A DNA stretch of 58,347 nucleotides from Alistipes sp. GTDB lineage: Bacteria > Bacteroidota > Bacteroidia > Bacteroidales > Rikenellaceae. How positions within the stretch are numbered: the stretch's first letter is position 1; every line of letters starts with the position of its first letter. Both the position numbers and the translations under genes were made by a program. Positions 35,816-42,470 of the stretch are shown piece by piece. Where the stretch lies: the NCBI GenBank assembly GCA_017520545.1, contig JAFXFM010000019.1, positions 1 through 58,347 of the forward strand. The letters are read 5' to 3'. The notes beneath the pieces were generated by a model, which did not search any database, was not told the DNA's origin, and was given only the letters and a program-made list of their open reading frames with translations.

Positions 35816-35846
35816 TTTGTAAAAACAAAATAAATCGTTAAATTTG
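35816..35846 (+). promoter_or_regulatory. -33/-7 promoter of the SUMF-protein gene
   Basis: TTTG at 35816-35819 and TAAATTTG at 35839-35846, spacer 19. The ATG at 35870 follows 23 bases later, which rejects the in-frame start at 35846. Confidence 0.7.
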
Positions 35847-35869
35847 TGGGAATTATCTACACAAACGAG

Positions 35870-38800
35870 ATGAAGAGATTTTTTACCTACATATTTGCTC
35901 TGATTTTGCCGCTTATGGCAATGGCGCAAACCGAAGGCCCGAAGAACTATCGCAGCATCGAAATTGACCCTCAAAGTTTAGCACCGGTGCAGACCGATGC
36001 GCTTTCGGGTGTGCCAATCGACAAAATCGGGCTCGACCGCTCGATGCGACCTTGCGCACGTATCAAGATGCACATCAACCGTATGACTCGCGAGGATATT
36101 GCGCAACTATCGGTGGAGCCTGTCGGTGGCGTTGTCGAGGTTATGAGGCAGATTGTAGCCTACGAGGGCAATGGACTGATTATCGAACTTACGGCAAAAC
36201 CCGAGACCCGTTTCTACCTTCGCCACCCTAAATTTGGCGACTCGAACGAGGTTTCGTTTGCTTTGGAAGGCGACAAGGAGTATCGCCTGAACGCCCAACT
36301 CTGCCAGATGCAATCTATTGTGGTGAGTACGAATGTCGTGGGTGCAGATGTCTATGTCGATAACCAATATAGGGGCAAGAGCAATTCGGGCTATACCCTC
36401 ACTGTTAATGATATAATGGTGGGTCAGCACAAAATTCGTGTCGAGTACGGCACGTTGAAGCGCGAGGTGGAGGTGCTTGTAACCGATGCCGATATCTACT
36501 TCAAGGTGGAGGTCGATACCCAACTTACACGTCCGCAGTATGTTGTATTCCAAATTGTTCCTGTGAGCGCATCTATTGCCGTGGGCGATAAGAGTTACCC
36601 GCTCGACAGCGAGGGTATTGCGCAGATGGTGCTCTACAACGGCTCCTACAACTACATCGTTTCGGCAAAGGACTACCACGACGAGAAGGGCACTTTCGTT
36701 GTGAGTGGCGCAAAGGTCGAGAAGAGCGTTAAACTTCGCCCTGCTCACGGCTTTTTGAGCGTTTCGGGCGAGGGTGCGCTAAATGGTGCGAGTGTCTATG
36801 TCGATGGTGAACTCCTCGGCACTGCACCTGTCAAGAGCGATAAACTTGCGAGTGGTAACCACAGCGTACGCATCGTCAAGTCGCTCTACAAAACCTTCGA
36901 CGGCAAGGTTGTTATCGAAGATGGCAAGACCCTCGACTACGCCCCAACGCTTGTTGCCGACTTCGCCACCGTTTCGCTCTCTGCGGGTAGCGACTGCGAT
37001 ATCTATATCAACAACGAGCGCGTCGGCAAGGGCTCTTGGCGTGGCGATTTGGCTACGGGAGCCTATATCTTCGAGGCTCGCAAGGTGGGACACCGTTCTA
37101 CGTCGGTGTCGAAGAATATCACCGCCACCCCTTCGGAGCAGAACTACACTATACCTACTCCTTCGCCAATTTTGGGTACGCTGAATGTAACGAGCGACCC
37201 CGCTTTGGCAGATGTCTATGTCGATGGCAAGAGTGCGGGTCGCACACCGCTTATGGTCGATCTGATTATCGGCTCGCACGAGGTAGAGCTGCGCAAGGGC
37301 GACCTCGCCACCAAGAAGCAGAGCGTAAATATCGAGGAGGGCAAAACCGCAGATTTGAATTTAACGCTGACTAAATTGAGCAAAGATTACGTCGAAACAG
37401 CGGCAGGCATAAATATGAAGATGGTCTATGTTGAAGGCGGCACATTCCAGATGGGCTCGAATGCTGGCGATAGCGACGAGACGCCTGTTCATAGTGTAAC
37501 ACTCGACTCTTACTATATTGCTGAGTGTGAGGTAACTCAGGCGCAGTGGCAGACGATAATGGGCGATAACCCGTCAAAGTTCACAGGCGATACCAATCGA
37601 CCTGTCGAAAGTGTTAGTTGGGAAGAAGCCAAAGCCTTCTGCGCAAAGTTAAGCGAACTCACAGGCAAGAGATACACCTTGCCAACGGAGGCGCAGTGGG
37701 AGTATGCGGCTCGTGGAGGCAATAAGAGCCAAGGCTACACGTATAGCGGTAGCAATACAATCGACGATGTTGCTTGGTACAGAAGTGATAGTAGTAGTAC
37801 AACCCACGCAGTCAAGCAGAAGAGTGCTAACGAACTTGGTTTGTACGATATGAGTGGCAATGTCTGGGAGTGGTGTAACGATTGGTATGGCAGTAGTTAC
37901 TACTCTTCGAGCCCGCAAACAAATCCTACCGGACCATCATCCGGTAGCTACCGCGTTATTCGCGGGGGTGGCTGGGGCGATACTGCATCGGGCTGCCGTG
38001 TTGCTAATCGTTACTGCAACGCCCCGTCGGGCCGTTACGGCGGTGTTGGCTTCCGTGTTGTTTGCCTCGATGGCGAAGCAGTTGATGGCAACGAGGAATC
38101 TAACGACACTATCTACCACACGCTTGTATCGGGCGACAATTTATACAAGTTGGCTCAGACCTATGGTATAACAATAAACAAAATCTGTGAACTCAATCCA
38201 GACTTGGACCCCAGCACATTGCGAATCGGTCAGAGAATTCGCGTAAGGTATGGAACAAAACCAAAACATCAGACCTTTATCGAAACTGCGGCAGGCATAA
38301 ATATGAAGATGGTCTATGTTGAAGGCGGCACATTCCAGATGGGCTCGAATGCTGGCGAGAGCGACGAGAAACCTGTTCATAGTGTAACGCTTGACTCGTA
38401 TTATATTGCTGAGTGTGAGGTAACTCAGGCGCAGTGGCAGAAGATAATGGGCAATAACCCGTCAAACTTCACAGGCGATACCAATCGCCCTGTTGAATGT
38501 GTTAGTTGGGAAGACGCCACATCGTTCTGCGCAAAGTTGAGTGAACTCACTGGCAAGAGATACACATTGCCAACGGAAGCACAGTGGGAGTATGCCGCTC
38601 GTGGAGGCAATAAGAGCCAAGGTTACAAGTATAGCGGTAGCAATACAATAAGCGATGTTGCGTGGTACGAAGATAATAGTAGCAGAACAACCCACGCAGT
38701 CAAGCAGAAGAGTGCTAACGAGCTTGGTTTGTACGATATGAGTGGCAATGTCAGGGAGTGGTGTAACGATTGGTATAACGCAAGTTACTACTCTTCGAGC

Positions 38801-38962
38801 CCGCAAACAAATCCTACCGGACCATCATCCGGTAGCTACCGCGTTATTCGCGGGGGTAGCTGGTACAATGCTGCATCGATCTGCCGTGTTGCTTATCGTG
38901 GCAACAACGCCCCGTCGAACCGTTTCAGCATTGTCGGCTTCCGTGTTGTTTGCCTCCCATAG
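35870..38962 (+). CDS. Exported PEGA-SUMF-LysM-SUMF protein with two DGR-type variable tails
   Basis: 1030 residues from the ATG at 35870. A signal peptide (LPLMAMAQ, cleavage near 20) is followed by an N-terminal beta region and four PEGA-like carbohydrate-binding repeats at about 146-214, 293-360, 365-430 and 435-500 ('V.VDG...G..P'). The first SUMF1/FGE-sulfatase domain (C-type-lectin fold) covers about 508-733, a LysM motif about 747-793 (HTLVSGDNLYKLAQTYGI), and a second SUMF domain about 803-1029. Both SUMF copies have FQMGSNAG, SWE.A..FCAKL, LPTEAQWEYAARGG and end in VGFRVVCL. They are nearly identical except for the last 118 bases, where residues vary only at NNC/NNT codons. Likely a peptidoglycan-associated, surface-exposed ligand binder, not a sulfatase activator. 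Confidence 0.85.
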   Translation: MKRFFTYIFALILPLMAMAQTEGPKNYRSIEIDPQSLAPVQTDALSGVPIDKIGLDRSMRPCARIKMHINRMTREDIAQLSVEPVGGVVEVMRQIVAYEGNGLIIELTAKPETRFYLRHPKFGDSNEVSFALEGDKEYRLNAQLCQMQSIVVSTNVVGADVYVDNQYRGKSNSGYTLTVNDIMVGQHKIRVEYGTLKREVEVLVTDADIYFKVEVDTQLTRPQYVVFQIVPVSASIAVGDKSYPLDSEGIAQMVLYNGSYNYIVSAKDYHDEKGTFVVSGAKVEKSVKLRPAHGFLSVSGEGALNGASVYVDGELLGTAPVKSDKLASGNHSVRIVKSLYKTFDGKVVIEDGKTLDYAPTLVADFATVSLSAGSDCDIYINNERVGKGSWRGDLATGAYIFEARKVGHRSTSVSKNITATPSEQNYTIPTPSPILGTLNVTSDPALADVYVDGKSAGRTPLMVDLIIGSHEVELRKGDLATKKQSVNIEEGKTADLNLTLTKLSKDYVETAAGINMKMVYVEGGTFQMGSNAGDSDETPVHSVTLDSYYIAECEVTQAQWQTIMGDNPSKFTGDTNRPVESVSWEEAKAFCAKLSELTGKRYTLPTEAQWEYAARGGNKSQGYTYSGSNTIDDVAWYRSDSSSTTHAVKQKSANELGLYDMSGNVWEWCNDWYGSSYYSSSPQTNPTGPSSGSYRVIRGGGWGDTASGCRVANRYCNAPSGRYGGVGFRVVCLDGEAVDGNEESNDTIYHTLVSGDNLYKLAQTYGITINKICELNPDLDPSTLRIGQRIRVRYGTKPKHQTFIETAAGINMKMVYVEGGTFQMGSNAGESDEKPVHSVTLDSYYIAECEVTQAQWQKIMGNNPSNFTGDTNRPVECVSWEDATSFCAKLSELTGKRYTLPTEAQWEYAARGGNKSQGYKYSGSNTISDVAWYEDNSSRTTHAVKQKSANELGLYDMSGNVREWCNDWYNASYYSSSPQTNPTGPSSGSYRVIRGGSWYNAASICRVAYRGNNAPSNRFSIVGFRVVCLP
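37381..38068 (+). repeat. SUMF-domain duplication, copy 1
   Basis: About 688 bases repeated at 38269-38956, offset 888. Outside the terminal variable segment the differences are scattered, many at third codon positions, as in ordinary paralogous divergence. About 75 bases just before the variable segment (from AGTTACTACTC onward) are identical. Confidence 0.85.
37951..38068 (+). other. Putative DGR variable region 1 (internal)
   Basis: 118 bases ending in GGCTTCCGTGTTGTTTGCC, which is also the end of variable region 2. It differs from region 2 at 19 bases and 12 residues: G/S, G/Y, D/N, T/A, G/I, N/Y, Y/G, C/N, G/N, Y/F, G/S and G/I. All replaced codons are of NNC or NNT form. The region is internal to the protein and followed by a LysM motif, whereas known target proteins carry it at the C-terminus. 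Confidence 0.65.
38269..38956 (+). repeat. SUMF-domain duplication, copy 2
   Basis: Partner of 37381-38068; it encodes the C-terminal lectin-fold domain. Confidence 0.85.
38839..38956 (+). other. Putative DGR variable region 2 (C-terminal)
   Basis: Same length as region 1, ending two codons before the stop of the gene, the usual place for a DGR variable region. The codons AGC, TAC, AAT, GCT, ATC, TAT, GGC, AAC, AAC, TTC, AGC and ATT all follow from AAC- or AAT/ACT-type template codons by changes at A. Confidence 0.7.
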
Positions 38963-39195
38963 CTTAAAAAAAGTGCCATTTGCAATGGCAAGCAGGTCAA
39001 ATGGAATAAGACCTGCGGCAAATTGCAATGACGTAGCAAAATGGCAAGGAATGATATAGAATGACAAATAAATGGCAAATGCCCCTGTTATTAAGCACTC
39101 CTAATAGTGCGCAACCATTCAATGCCATTGAAATAGATGCAAAAAAACTATAGTTAAGCAGATAAAAATAACAACCAAACCAAAAACAAATAGTT
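38963..39195 (+). other. Intergenic region after variable region 2, with hairpin
   Basis: No gene, no Avd, template repeat or reverse transcriptase fits here. GCAGGTC (38992-38998) pairs with GACCTGC (39010-39016), a GC-rich stem with an 11-base loop located 36 bases after the variable region. DGRs often have such a hairpin close behind the initiation site, though usually nearer. The rest is made of AATGGCAA-like repeats. Confidence 0.4.
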
Positions 39196-40809
39196 ATGAG
39201 AAAATTACTTTTATTGTTCGTTGCGCTCGCAACATCGTTGTCGGTTATGGCGGCAGAGTGTGTTATTGTACCACGCCCCGTGTCGTTTGAGCCGCAAAAA
39301 GGCAAAATGACTCTTAACTCGAAGAGCGTTGTATATGTGGCAGATAAGTCGCTGGTGCGCCCTGCTACCCTATTTTGTTCGTATGTTGCAGCCGAGAAGG
39401 GCTTGCAGTTGTCGGTGGTTGAGAACCTGCCAAAGGGCAAAGGTGTAATCTCGCTCTCGATTGATAAGTCGCTTGCGCAAGAGGAGTATCAGCTCGATGT
39501 AACAAAGAAGGGAATCGTAATAAAAGGCGGTAGCGAGCAGGGTGTATTCTACGGCTTGCAGAGCCTTCGTCAGGTAGTCTTCCACTCGAAAGGCAATGCC
39601 AAGAAGGTGTCGGTTGAGTGTGTAACCGTAAAGGATAAACCACACTTCGGCTATCGTGGCGGTATGCTCGACGTTTGTCGCTACTTTTTTGGTGTTGATG
39701 AGGTGAAGAAGTTTATCGATATCCTCGCCCTGCACAAGGTAAATCGTTTCCATTGGCACTTGACCGAGGATCAGGGTTGGCGTATAGAGATTAAGAAGTA
39801 CCCAAACCTCACTAAAATCGGCTCTGTGCGTAATGCGACGCAGGTTGGTCGATACAGCAAGCGCACACAGCCCGTGTATGATGGCAAGCCCTATGGAGGT
39901 TTCTTTACACAGGACGAGGTGCGAGATATTGTACGCTATGCTACTGAACGATATATCGATGTTATTCCGGAGATAGATATGCCGGGCCATATGGTTGCTG
40001 CATTGGCATCTTATCCAGAACTCGGTTGCACAAAGGGTCCGTACGAGGTGCGCAAGATGTGGGGTATCTCGCAAGATATTTTGTGTGCAGGTCGTGAATC
40101 AACATTCGAATTTATTGAAGGCGTATTGTCCGAGATTCTTGAATTGTTCCCTTCGAAATATATCCATATCGGAGGCGATGAGGCTCCGAAGCATCGTTGG
40201 AAGGTCTGCCCGGATTGCCAAAAGCGCATCCAAGAGGAGGGATTGAAAGATGAGCACGAGTTGCAGAGTTACTTTATGAAGCGTGTAGAGAAGTTTTTGG
40301 CAAAGTACGGTCGCAGCATTATAGGTTGGGACGAAATTTTAGATGGAGGTGTTTCGAAGACCGCTACTGTGATGGCTTGGCGTGGACCTAATCGTGGTAT
40401 TATGGCTGCGAAGTTGGGCAATAAGGTTATTATGACACCAACTCGTTACTGCTACTTGGATTATTGCCAAACCTCTGACCCTGATGCAAACAAAGAGCCT
40501 ATGGCTATGAGTTTGAAGGCGAAGTTACCTATTCGCAAAGTCTATTTGCTCGATCCATACGATAAGTTGAACGAGGAGGAACGTAAGGCTATTATCGGCG
40601 TGCAGGGCAACCTCTGGACAGAGTATATCCCTAATTTCAAACACGCACAACATATGCTGTTGCCTCGCTTGGCGGCTATTGCCGAGGTGGGCTGGTCGTA
40701 CGAGAACAAAGATTTTGACGACTTTACTCGTCGTATGCATTTGTTCCGTAAGTTGTACGATAAGTGTGGATATAACTATGCCCCATACTTCTTCAATGGA
40801 ATAGAGTAA
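39196..40809 (+). CDS. Beta-N-acetylhexosaminidase (GH20), first of a tandem pair
   Basis: 537 residues. A signal peptide (ending SVMAAE) is followed by an N-terminal GH20b domain (residues about 25-145) and the GH20 catalytic barrel. HWHLTEDQGWRIEIKKYP near 185 and the catalytic Asp-Glu pair in YIHIGGDEAPKHRW near 320 are present; WDEILDGG, AWRG and a Trp in NLWTEY line the active site. Predicted to be exported and to release terminal GlcNAc/GalNAc from host or microbial glycans. The next gene is a close paralogue 41 bases downstream. Confidence 0.93.
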   Translation: MRKLLLLFVALATSLSVMAAECVIVPRPVSFEPQKGKMTLNSKSVVYVADKSLVRPATLFCSYVAAEKGLQLSVVENLPKGKGVISLSIDKSLAQEEYQLDVTKKGIVIKGGSEQGVFYGLQSLRQVVFHSKGNAKKVSVECVTVKDKPHFGYRGGMLDVCRYFFGVDEVKKFIDILALHKVNRFHWHLTEDQGWRIEIKKYPNLTKIGSVRNATQVGRYSKRTQPVYDGKPYGGFFTQDEVRDIVRYATERYIDVIPEIDMPGHMVAALASYPELGCTKGPYEVRKMWGISQDILCAGRESTFEFIEGVLSEILELFPSKYIHIGGDEAPKHRWKVCPDCQKRIQEEGLKDEHELQSYFMKRVEKFLAKYGRSIIGWDEILDGGVSKTATVMAWRGPNRGIMAAKLGNKVIMTPTRYCYLDYCQTSDPDANKEPMAMSLKAKLPIRKVYLLDPYDKLNEEERKAIIGVQGNLWTEYIPNFKHAQHMLLPRLAAIAEVGWSYENKDFDDFTRRMHLFRKLYDKCGYNYAPYFFNGIE

Positions 40810-40850
40810 CCGAATAATAAATTAACCAAATCAACCAAAAACTTACATTT

Positions 40851-42470
40851 ATGAGAAAATTACTTTTATTAGTTGTTGCGCTTGTCGCATCATTGTCGGT
40901 GGTGGCTGCCGAGTGTATGATTATCCCGAAACCGGTGTCGTATGAGCCACAAAAGGGAAAGTGCGTGTTGTCGCCAAAAACTGCAATCTATGTAGCTGAA
41001 AAGTCGCTTGTGCGTCCTGCTACAATCTTCTGCTCGCAAGTGGAGGCGGAGAAGGGCTTGCAACTCGCAGTTGTGGAGGGTGCTGCACCTGCTAAGGGTG
41101 CCGTAGCGCTCTCGATTGATAAATCGCTCGGTAAGGAGGAGTATTCGCTCCAAATCGCAAAGTCGGGCGTAGTAGTTAAGGGCGGTAGCGAGCAGGGCGT
41201 ATTCTACGGCTTGCAGAGCCTTCGTCAGGTGGTTTTCAATGCCAAGGGAAAGGGCGGAAAGGCTACCCTACCTTGTATGGTGGTGAAGGATAAACCACAT
41301 TTTGCTTATCGTGGCGGTATGCTCGACGTTTGTCGCTACTTTTTCAGTGTCGATGAAGTTAAGAAATTTATCGATATTCTCGCTATGCATAAGATGAACC
41401 GTTTTCACTGGCACTTGACCGAGGATCAGGGTTGGCGTATCGAGATTAAGAAGTATCCTAACCTTACAAAGGTTGGCTCGATGCGTAAGGAGACGCTTGT
41501 GGGCTTGCAGACAAAGAATAACAGAAAATTTGATGGTAAACCTTATGGCGGATTCTACACTCAGGACGAGGTACGCGAGATTGTGCGCTATGCATCTGAA
41601 CGATATATCGACGTTATTCCGGAGATAGATATGCCGGGCCATATGGTTGCTGCATTGGCATCTTATCCAGAACTTGGTTGCACAAAGGGTCCGTACGAGG
41701 TGCGTACCAAATGGGGAATCTCGCGCGATATATTGTGTGCAGGTCGTGAATCGACATTCGAGTTTGTAGAGGGTGTCCTCGCAGAGGTTTTGGAGTTGTT
41801 CCCATCGAAGTATATCCACATTGGTGGCGACGAGGCTCCAAAGCATCGTTGGAAGGCTTGCCCTGAGTGCCAAAAGCGTATTCAGGAGGAGGGTTTGAAG
41901 GACGAGCACGAGTTGCAGAGTTACTTCACTCATCGTGTAGAGAAGTTCTTGGCAAAGCACGGTCGTCGCCTTATTGGTTGGGACGAGATTCTCGAAGGTG
42001 GCGTTTCGAAGACCGCGACTGTTATGGCTTGGCGTGGAGCGCAGCGTGGTGTCAAGGCTGCACAGCTGGGTAACGAGGTTATTATGACCCCTCGCCACTA
42101 CTGCTATCTCGACTACTGCCAGACTTCGGACCACGATGCCAACAACGAGCCTATTTGTGCGGCCGGTAATGGCAAGAGATTCCAGTTGCCTATCCGCAAG
42201 GTCTATTCGTTCGACCCATACGACCAATTGACTCCTGAGCAGCGTAAGTCTATTATTGGTGTTCAGGGTAATATGTGGACCGAATATGTGCCAAACTTCG
42301 ACCACGTTCAGTATATGGTTATGCCTCGTATTGCTGCCCTTGCAGAGGTAGGTTGGACCTATGAGAATCGCAACTACGACGATTTCGCACGTCGTTTGCA
42401 CCTGTTGCGTAAGTTGTACGACAAGTGTGGATACAAGTACGCTCCATACTTCTTTAACGGAATAGAATAG
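40851..42470 (+). CDS. Beta-N-acetylhexosaminidase (GH20), second of a tandem pair
   Basis: 539 residues with the same architecture as the preceding gene: signal peptide ending VVAAE, GH20b domain, and catalytic barrel with HWHLTEDQGWRIE and HIGGDEAPKHRW. The two share long identical stretches (for example IDVIPEIDMPGHMVAALASY and the following 20 residues), so they arose by tandem duplication. They differ most near residues 200-215 and 425-440, loops that may alter specificity. Its stop overlaps the GTG start of the transporter gene by one base. Confidence 0.93.
   Translation: MRKLLLLVVALVASLSVVAAECMIIPKPVSYEPQKGKCVLSPKTAIYVAEKSLVRPATIFCSQVEAEKGLQLAVVEGAAPAKGAVALSIDKSLGKEEYSLQIAKSGVVVKGGSEQGVFYGLQSLRQVVFNAKGKGGKATLPCMVVKDKPHFAYRGGMLDVCRYFFSVDEVKKFIDILAMHKMNRFHWHLTEDQGWRIEIKKYPNLTKVGSMRKETLVGLQTKNNRKFDGKPYGGFYTQDEVREIVRYASERYIDVIPEIDMPGHMVAALASYPELGCTKGPYEVRTKWGISRDILCAGRESTFEFVEGVLAEVLELFPSKYIHIGGDEAPKHRWKACPECQKRIQEEGLKDEHELQSYFTHRVEKFLAKHGRRLIGWDEILEGGVSKTATVMAWRGAQRGVKAAQLGNEVIMTPRHYCYLDYCQTSDHDANNEPICAAGNGKRFQLPIRKVYSFDPYDQLTPEQRKSIIGVQGNMWTEYVPNFDHVQYMVMPRIAALAEVGWTYENRNYDDFARRLHLLRKLYDKCGYKYAPYFFNGIE

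Follow-up and report, generated by a model that had tools for sequence, protein, structure and literature searches.

A FGE-LysM-FGE protein of Alistipes sp. with two probable variable regions of a diversity-generating retroelement, in an assembly without a visible cassette

The 58,347-nt window analysed here is the entire contig C18 (JAFXFM010000019.1) of an Alistipes sp. genome assembly (1.93 Mb, 24 contigs, 92% complete), and one of its open reading frames (ORFs), the 1038-aa target ORF, raises a twofold question: are the ends of its two FGE-sulfatase domains variable regions (VRs) of a diversity-generating retroelement (DGR), and if so, where is the cassette with the reverse transcriptase (RT) and the template? 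We put at roughly 85% the probability that both ends (VR1 and VR2) and a third copy elsewhere in the genome (VR3) are variable regions of a DGR of the HRDC/FGE kind, with VR2 as the canonical acceptor, VR1 rewritten after duplication, and the cassette not in the assembly; judging by sequence, the targets would resemble Treponema denticola TvpA in kind. The features concerned, all on the plus strand, are as follows.

35846..38962, plus strand: target ORF, 1038 aa, with three PEGA domains, FGE-sulfatase, LysM, and FGE-sulfatase, in that order
37418..38062, plus strand: FGE-sulfatase domain 1
37901..37969, plus strand: 69-nt tract with no differences among the three copies, immediately upstream of the first variable site (counterpart in copy 2, 38789-38857)
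37951..38068, plus strand: VR1, the putative internal variable region, at the 3' end of FGE domain 1, without a clade-type stem-loop behind it
38117..38245, plus strand: LysM domain, residues 758-800
38306..38950, plus strand: FGE-sulfatase domain 2
38839..38956, plus strand: VR2, the putative terminal variable region, at the 3' end of FGE domain 2
38971..39041, plus strand: two-stage stem-loop behind VR2 (inner stem 38992-38998 with 39010-39016)

A preliminary description of this DNA had interpreted the last 118 bases of the two domains as two DGR-type variable regions in FGE-type domains, one of them internal, flanking LysM, on the grounds of 19 differences, 18 of them at codon positions 1 or 2, in NNC or NNT codons. 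Our recount gives the same pattern: 19 of the 118 bases differ between VR1 and VR2 (11 at codon position 1, seven at position 2, and a silent one at position 3), and the affected codons are NNC or NNT in both copies without exception. The tally of A needed correction, with A in one copy at 14 rather than 15 of the 19 differences and four rather than three differences with A in neither copy that fit a template A changed twice; GTT/GTC is, as had been stated, the sole difference not fitting A mutation. VR3 (C24:7133-7250; 85% identity over 118 nt) ends a 433-aa protein with a single FGE domain and a signal-like start, preceded by a 158-aa gene related to the 158-aa gene of a DGR in the congeneric genome G030. 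Variation among the three copies touches 23 sites (21 at codon positions 1 or 2, two at third positions), which occupy 15 codon columns, one of them silent and 14 changing the residue.

The key test, in our view, is whether these sites coincide with A in templates, because the templates of congeners played no part in finding them. A predicted template was written from the three copies alone, with A at every variable site, and then used as the query. Among 180 congeneric genomes it gave nine matches in six genomes at E ≤ 1e-6, comprising six VRs and three template repeats, the latter in G030, G041, and G144, each directly behind a DGR-type RT. At the variable sites of the present genome these templates have A in 19/23, 21/23, and 21/23 cases, respectively, against 8/92, 12/94, and 8/95 at its invariant sites (Fisher 6e-12, 9e-13, and 1e-14). 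The exceptions include two third-position sites; in G041 and G144, A stands at all 21 first- and second-position variable sites, and six more distant templates (L116-L121) have A at 20 or 21 of the 23. Judged on the congeners' templates, the substitutions in the present genome thus appear confined to template A sites, and it is these templates that lend support to the earlier proposal of two DGR-type variable regions around LysM.

The copies also bear signs of having been rewritten. Third-position differences make up one of the 19 between VR1 and VR2 vs 25 of the 44 in the domain body (p = 8e-5), and silent differences are depleted in the VRs relative to the bodies in all three pairs (VR1-VR2, 1/30 vs 20/95, p 0.016; VR1-VR3, 2/31 vs 38/93, p 1.6e-4; VR2-VR3, 1/29 vs 41/93, p 1.3e-5). 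Silent divergence for these pairs is 0.25, 0.59, and 0.66 in the bodies vs 0.03, 0.07, and 0.04 in the VRs, and the VRs therefore go back to a common source more recent than the gene copies themselves. Each copy, moreover, has A at two to three sites where the other two have none (in VR1, at 37982 and 38006), which means that no copy was taken from another as it now stands and that each traces to an A-bearing source.

Thirteen codon columns read AAY in two or all three of the congener templates, and all 13 vary among the copies of the present genome, whose codons there end in C or T (NNY) in 39 of 39 cases, vs a fraction of 0.606 of target-ORF codons. We counted NNY at these columns in 25 copies, namely 24 of 38 FGE matches (from 27 of the 180 genomes) plus a further FGE copy of the present genome on contig C19; the count left out the other 14 matches, in which the 39-codon span from R..RGG.W to GFR was not seen or for which no sequence was available. 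Eleven of the 25 are fully NNY: our three, those of G144 and G041, and one each from G093, G025, G080, G031, G087, and G149, six genomes with no cassette in the assembly. Among the cassette genomes, the scores are 13 in G144 and G041 and 12 in G030 and G107, and the lowest copies reach 8/13. The C19 domain, which scores 8/13, was rejected as a fourth VR.

The relatives that do carry machinery show what a complete locus looks like. The full system of G030 consists of the 158-aa gene, a 465-aa FGE target (53% identical to the C24 protein), a 150-aa HRDC protein, a 335-aa RT, and the template, and the RTs in G107, G041, and G144 show 59-67% identity. Among the 180 genomes, the HRDC gene is found at E 5e-59 or better only in these four, the next being G146 at 1e-11; at E ≤ 0.001 there are HRDC matches in 168, the weak ones mostly in long frames, as expected of RecQ. 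Like the window locus, all four congeneric cassettes have an FGE target followed by a stem-loop, but they also have the HRDC gene and the RT, and in three of them the template looks intact, whereas the present genome has target and stem-loop only. In G107 the presumed template behind the RT (L093:9995-10125) has a degraded or overwritten look, and that cassette may therefore be dead, with its RT and HRDC frames still open.

Several side observations concern these relatives. The DGR target in G041 (L091:2143-3996) is a protein kinase fused to an FGE domain. A tail like GGATGGATTTCC...TTAAACAGACC lies 3' of the templates in five loci (L051, L091, L092, L116, and L093) and may be part of the DGR RNA; it was not found in the sequence searched from the present genome. 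A second type of DGR occurs in the genus (L095-L099, in G014, G158, G052, G163, and G074), with template and VR within about 0.6 kb of each other and another framework; in G158, 22 of 22 mismatches fall at template A. Template/VR pairs were kept only with at least 70% of mismatches at A, and the pair tallies are therefore selected. The same search gave no pair in L093, L094, L053, L113, L122, L123, or L175-L180.

A further tie to the congeneric cassettes lies just behind VR2. In the cassette-bearing loci a 7-bp stem, GCAGGWC paired with GWCCTGC (in G041, GCAGCCC with GGGCTGC), carries an A-rich loop and sits inside an outer stem, some 45-60 nt downstream of the VR; in the window a matching stem stands 35 nt behind VR2. 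When all six sequences including the window are aligned, 11 of 18 pairs have changed at both bases and still pair, and none of 500 shuffles attains the covariation score, with the structure itself derived from the same six sequences. A model built from the five loci excluding the window finds window positions 38971-39041, and in a search of the 180 genomes and the present one it matched the latter once, behind VR2 (46.2 bits, E 1.7e-6). It has no match behind VR1 and none behind VR3, where the hairpin looks terminator-like. The orthologue in G077 keeps the left part and the inner stem behind its VR and has lost the outer right arm (17.7 bits, E 0.3). We also considered whether the element is a dispersed repeat. 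Its right flank, which shares 37 nt (89%) with C24, would speak for one, but its left-arm 13-mer and right-arm 10-mer each occur once in 138 kb of the present genome, and the left part common to the G077 orthologue likewise weighs against it. We read the window element as the probable target stem-loop of VR2; a cassette presumably once stood at this locus, as in the four congeners.

Not everything favors a DGR origin with VR2 as acceptor. The A share of the VR1/VR2 differences, 14/19, is no better than the 30/44 in the domain body (Fisher p = 0.45; copies 1 and 2 compared without gaps), so that the A count alone proves nothing, and we rejected it as DGR proof. The non-silent excess in the VR, significant for VR1/VR2 (p 1e-5), is not significant for the pairs with VR3 (p 0.17 and 0.62). 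Ordinary gene conversion may also have acted, because the 69-nt tract 5' of the variable sites, identical in all three copies (and over 75 nt in copies 1 and 2), looks longer than the template homology of the relatives, which the finder measured without extending it in the 5' direction. Full NNY scores occur with and without a cassette and so mark DGR origin, not who keeps a cassette. The other four matches of the stem-loop model (G030, G107, G041, and G144) are its training loci, and the stem-loop search scored 28 candidates per genome under strict filters. Finally, a complete HRDC/FGE DGR with RT, template, and HRDC gene is not demonstrated in this organism, because the assembly contains none of the three. 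The A content and the missing machinery are also what would be seen if no DGR were involved and these ends had diverged like those of any paralogues, with positive selection acting on a ligand-binding loop. We consider this very improbable: independent templates have A at the variable sites (p down to 1e-14), a search with the predicted template recovers real ones, the variable codons are restricted to NNY, the VRs have diverged too little at silent positions for copies of this age, and the stem-loop stands behind VR2.

If a DGR wrote these regions, where is its cassette now? The preliminary description had supposed that a remote RT serves the protein and had proposed a genome search for a template repeat next to a DGR RT; neither was found in the 92%-complete assembly, and with no RT, template, or DGR-type HRDC gene there, the supposition is not supported. 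Searched with the predicted template, the assembly gave 11 matches up to E = 10, three of which are the VR copies; the other eight, of 14-22 nt with E 0.03 or worse (the best of them 20 nt at E 0.03), include no template repeat of its own. A 20-nt template-like match (C24:25215-25234) was rejected, as it lies within an open reading stretch before a PEGA ORF and shows no further likeness by eye. HRDC similarity in the assembly is confined to an open frame of 745 aa, the kind of match expected of RecQ (E 5e-5). The assembly's only RVT_1 match, on C20 (G000:C20:11475-11729; L004, L006), has one TGA within the match; this RT is partial and of UG5-nitrilase type and was rejected as the DGR enzyme. 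In G087, a UG26-type RT stands directly before an FGE gene with a VR-like end that is 13/13 NNY (L175:7154-9287, contig C1); this RT, too, was rejected as a DGR RT, being UG26-like and with no template pair seen by the finder.

Recent loss of the cassette strikes us as slightly the better account, and diversification would then presumably be inactive at present, although the assembly looks the same whether the cassette was lost or left unassembled. Somewhat less probable in our estimate is a cassette that is in the cell but unassembled or unbinned, still diversifying VR1, VR2, and VR3 in trans. The 92% completeness leaves room for it, and the VRs look fresh (39/39 codons NNY, two third-position differences in 118 sites); all-NNY copies also occur in the six other cassette-less congener assemblies, and trans action on incomplete loci is published (PMC10907252). 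Set against this are the negative searches of the assembly for all three cassette parts and the results of searching possible carriers: the RT relatives seen in the plasmid and phage collections (33 and 81 records) are all less than 60% identical, and those in viral contigs reach at most 41% identity among the matches listed (80 of 352). That the RT relatives seen on plasmids, phages, and viral contigs are all distant is a mild argument against a mobile carrier. The framework pattern had no match in viral contigs.

As for how the two regions came about, an RT would have made errors at A while copying a template rich in Asn codons, and the resulting cDNA would have replaced the ends of FGE domains, which have a C-type-lectin fold. 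VR2 would be the canonical acceptor, at the gene end and followed by the stem-loop of the clade, while VR1 would have arisen through duplication of the FGE domain and been rewritten afterwards, either by cDNA taken directly from the template or by conversion from VR2 as it stood earlier, so that retrohoming replaced VR2 and, directly or through it, VR1. It is also conceivable, if in our judgment not the favored account, that VR1 is no target itself and stores old versions of VR2 (or VR3) received by gene conversion within the gene family. No matching stem-loop lies behind VR1, the identity extends over 69-75 nt 5' of the variable sites, and in BPP-1 a stem-loop at the corresponding place is needed for efficient retrohoming (PMC3240598). 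However, VR1 alone of the three copies has A at 37982 and 38006 and so does not derive from the present states of the other two, and deletion of the BPP-1 inverted repeat leaves residual retrohoming, which is severely but not completely impaired (PMC12875486).

The layout of the protein bears on what such rewriting might serve. Its N-terminus resembles a signal peptide by eye, and an ATG eight codons in is the likelier start. The two FGE domains are duplicates, with 92% nucleotide identity over an ungapped 300-nt stretch and 86% protein identity. By sequence, the best solved relative of domain 2 is T. denticola variable protein 1 (E 1.5e-47), in an alignment that runs through the VR, placing VR1 and VR2, by this homology, at the predicted end of a C-type lectin/FGE fold. 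The protein is probably secreted and held at the envelope via LysM and/or PEGA, which would put it at the surface with two FGE faces presented that presumably bind ligands. Whether it is a bivalent receptor whose faces are diversified separately, VR2 by means of the stem-loop and VR1 internally through stem-loop-independent or VR2-relayed retrohoming, is a speculative proposal that we hold to be rather unlikely; were it true, separate diversification would build combinations of two variable faces. Elsewhere, the N-terminal half has three more relatives, 53-54% identical (L054:7480-10011, G000:C8:145807-147339, and G000:C17:53185-54567), the C24 member of which has PEGA repeats and an end without FGE. 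Downstream in the window, tandem genes at 39196-42470, encoding 537 and 539 aa, share blocks with 74-85% identity; we take them to encode proteins resembling beta-hexosaminidases.

These results imply that a DGR imprint can be recognized, and assigned to a cassette family, without a visible cassette, by means of template-A sites, NNY codons, and the stem-loop. Surveys that start from the RT miss such cassette-less targets, and one survey itself states that remote targets are undetectable by its approach (PMC8144416). VR1 without and VR2 with a stem-loop form a natural comparison within one gene, and stem-loop-independent retrohoming is therefore testable in population data.

Among the closest known systems is the DGR of T. 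denticola (PMC4891356; structure 2y3c), which, like the system described here, has FGE-fold targets with the VR at the domain end and hypervariation mainly of Asn codons, an HRDC accessory gene that overlaps the RT as in the congeners, and remote targets, with isolates that have targets but neither RT nor template. Unlike there, the present protein has two FGE/VR units around LysM plus PEGA, in a Bacteroidales-type genome, and a covarying stem-loop behind VR2. The DGRs of Thiohalocapsa PB-PSB1 (PMC10907252) likewise include several VRs per target and some FGE targets, with incomplete loci diversified in trans and VRs of one and the same target that differ in activity. Diversification is documented there by population data, whereas in the present assembly no RT was found. 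In 31 of 271 multi-VR DGRs, several VRs overlap the same ORF (PMC6642488), while the present pair consists of duplicated whole FGE domains with no template in the assembly. The hairpin/cruciform of BPP-1 (PMC3240598) is, as here, an inverted repeat rich in GC that lies a short way downstream of the VR; it has a 4-nt GRNA loop, and the element in the window family a 7-bp inner stem, an A-rich loop of 8-12 nt, and an outer stem of changing sequence. Multi-VR ORFs (PMC6642488, PMC10907252) and remote or orphan targets (PMC10907252, PMC4891356) are thus already published, and a literature search for DGR together with LysM gave, in the parts of the sources accessible, nothing beyond a prophage survey. 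The covarying stem-loop of the cassette family is new, with no dedicated literature search made for it, and so are the double FGE-LysM-FGE target, to which no second ORF with two FGE matches (E ≤ 1e-60) corresponds in the 180 genomes, judged from listed coordinates and frames, and its internal VR without a stem-loop.

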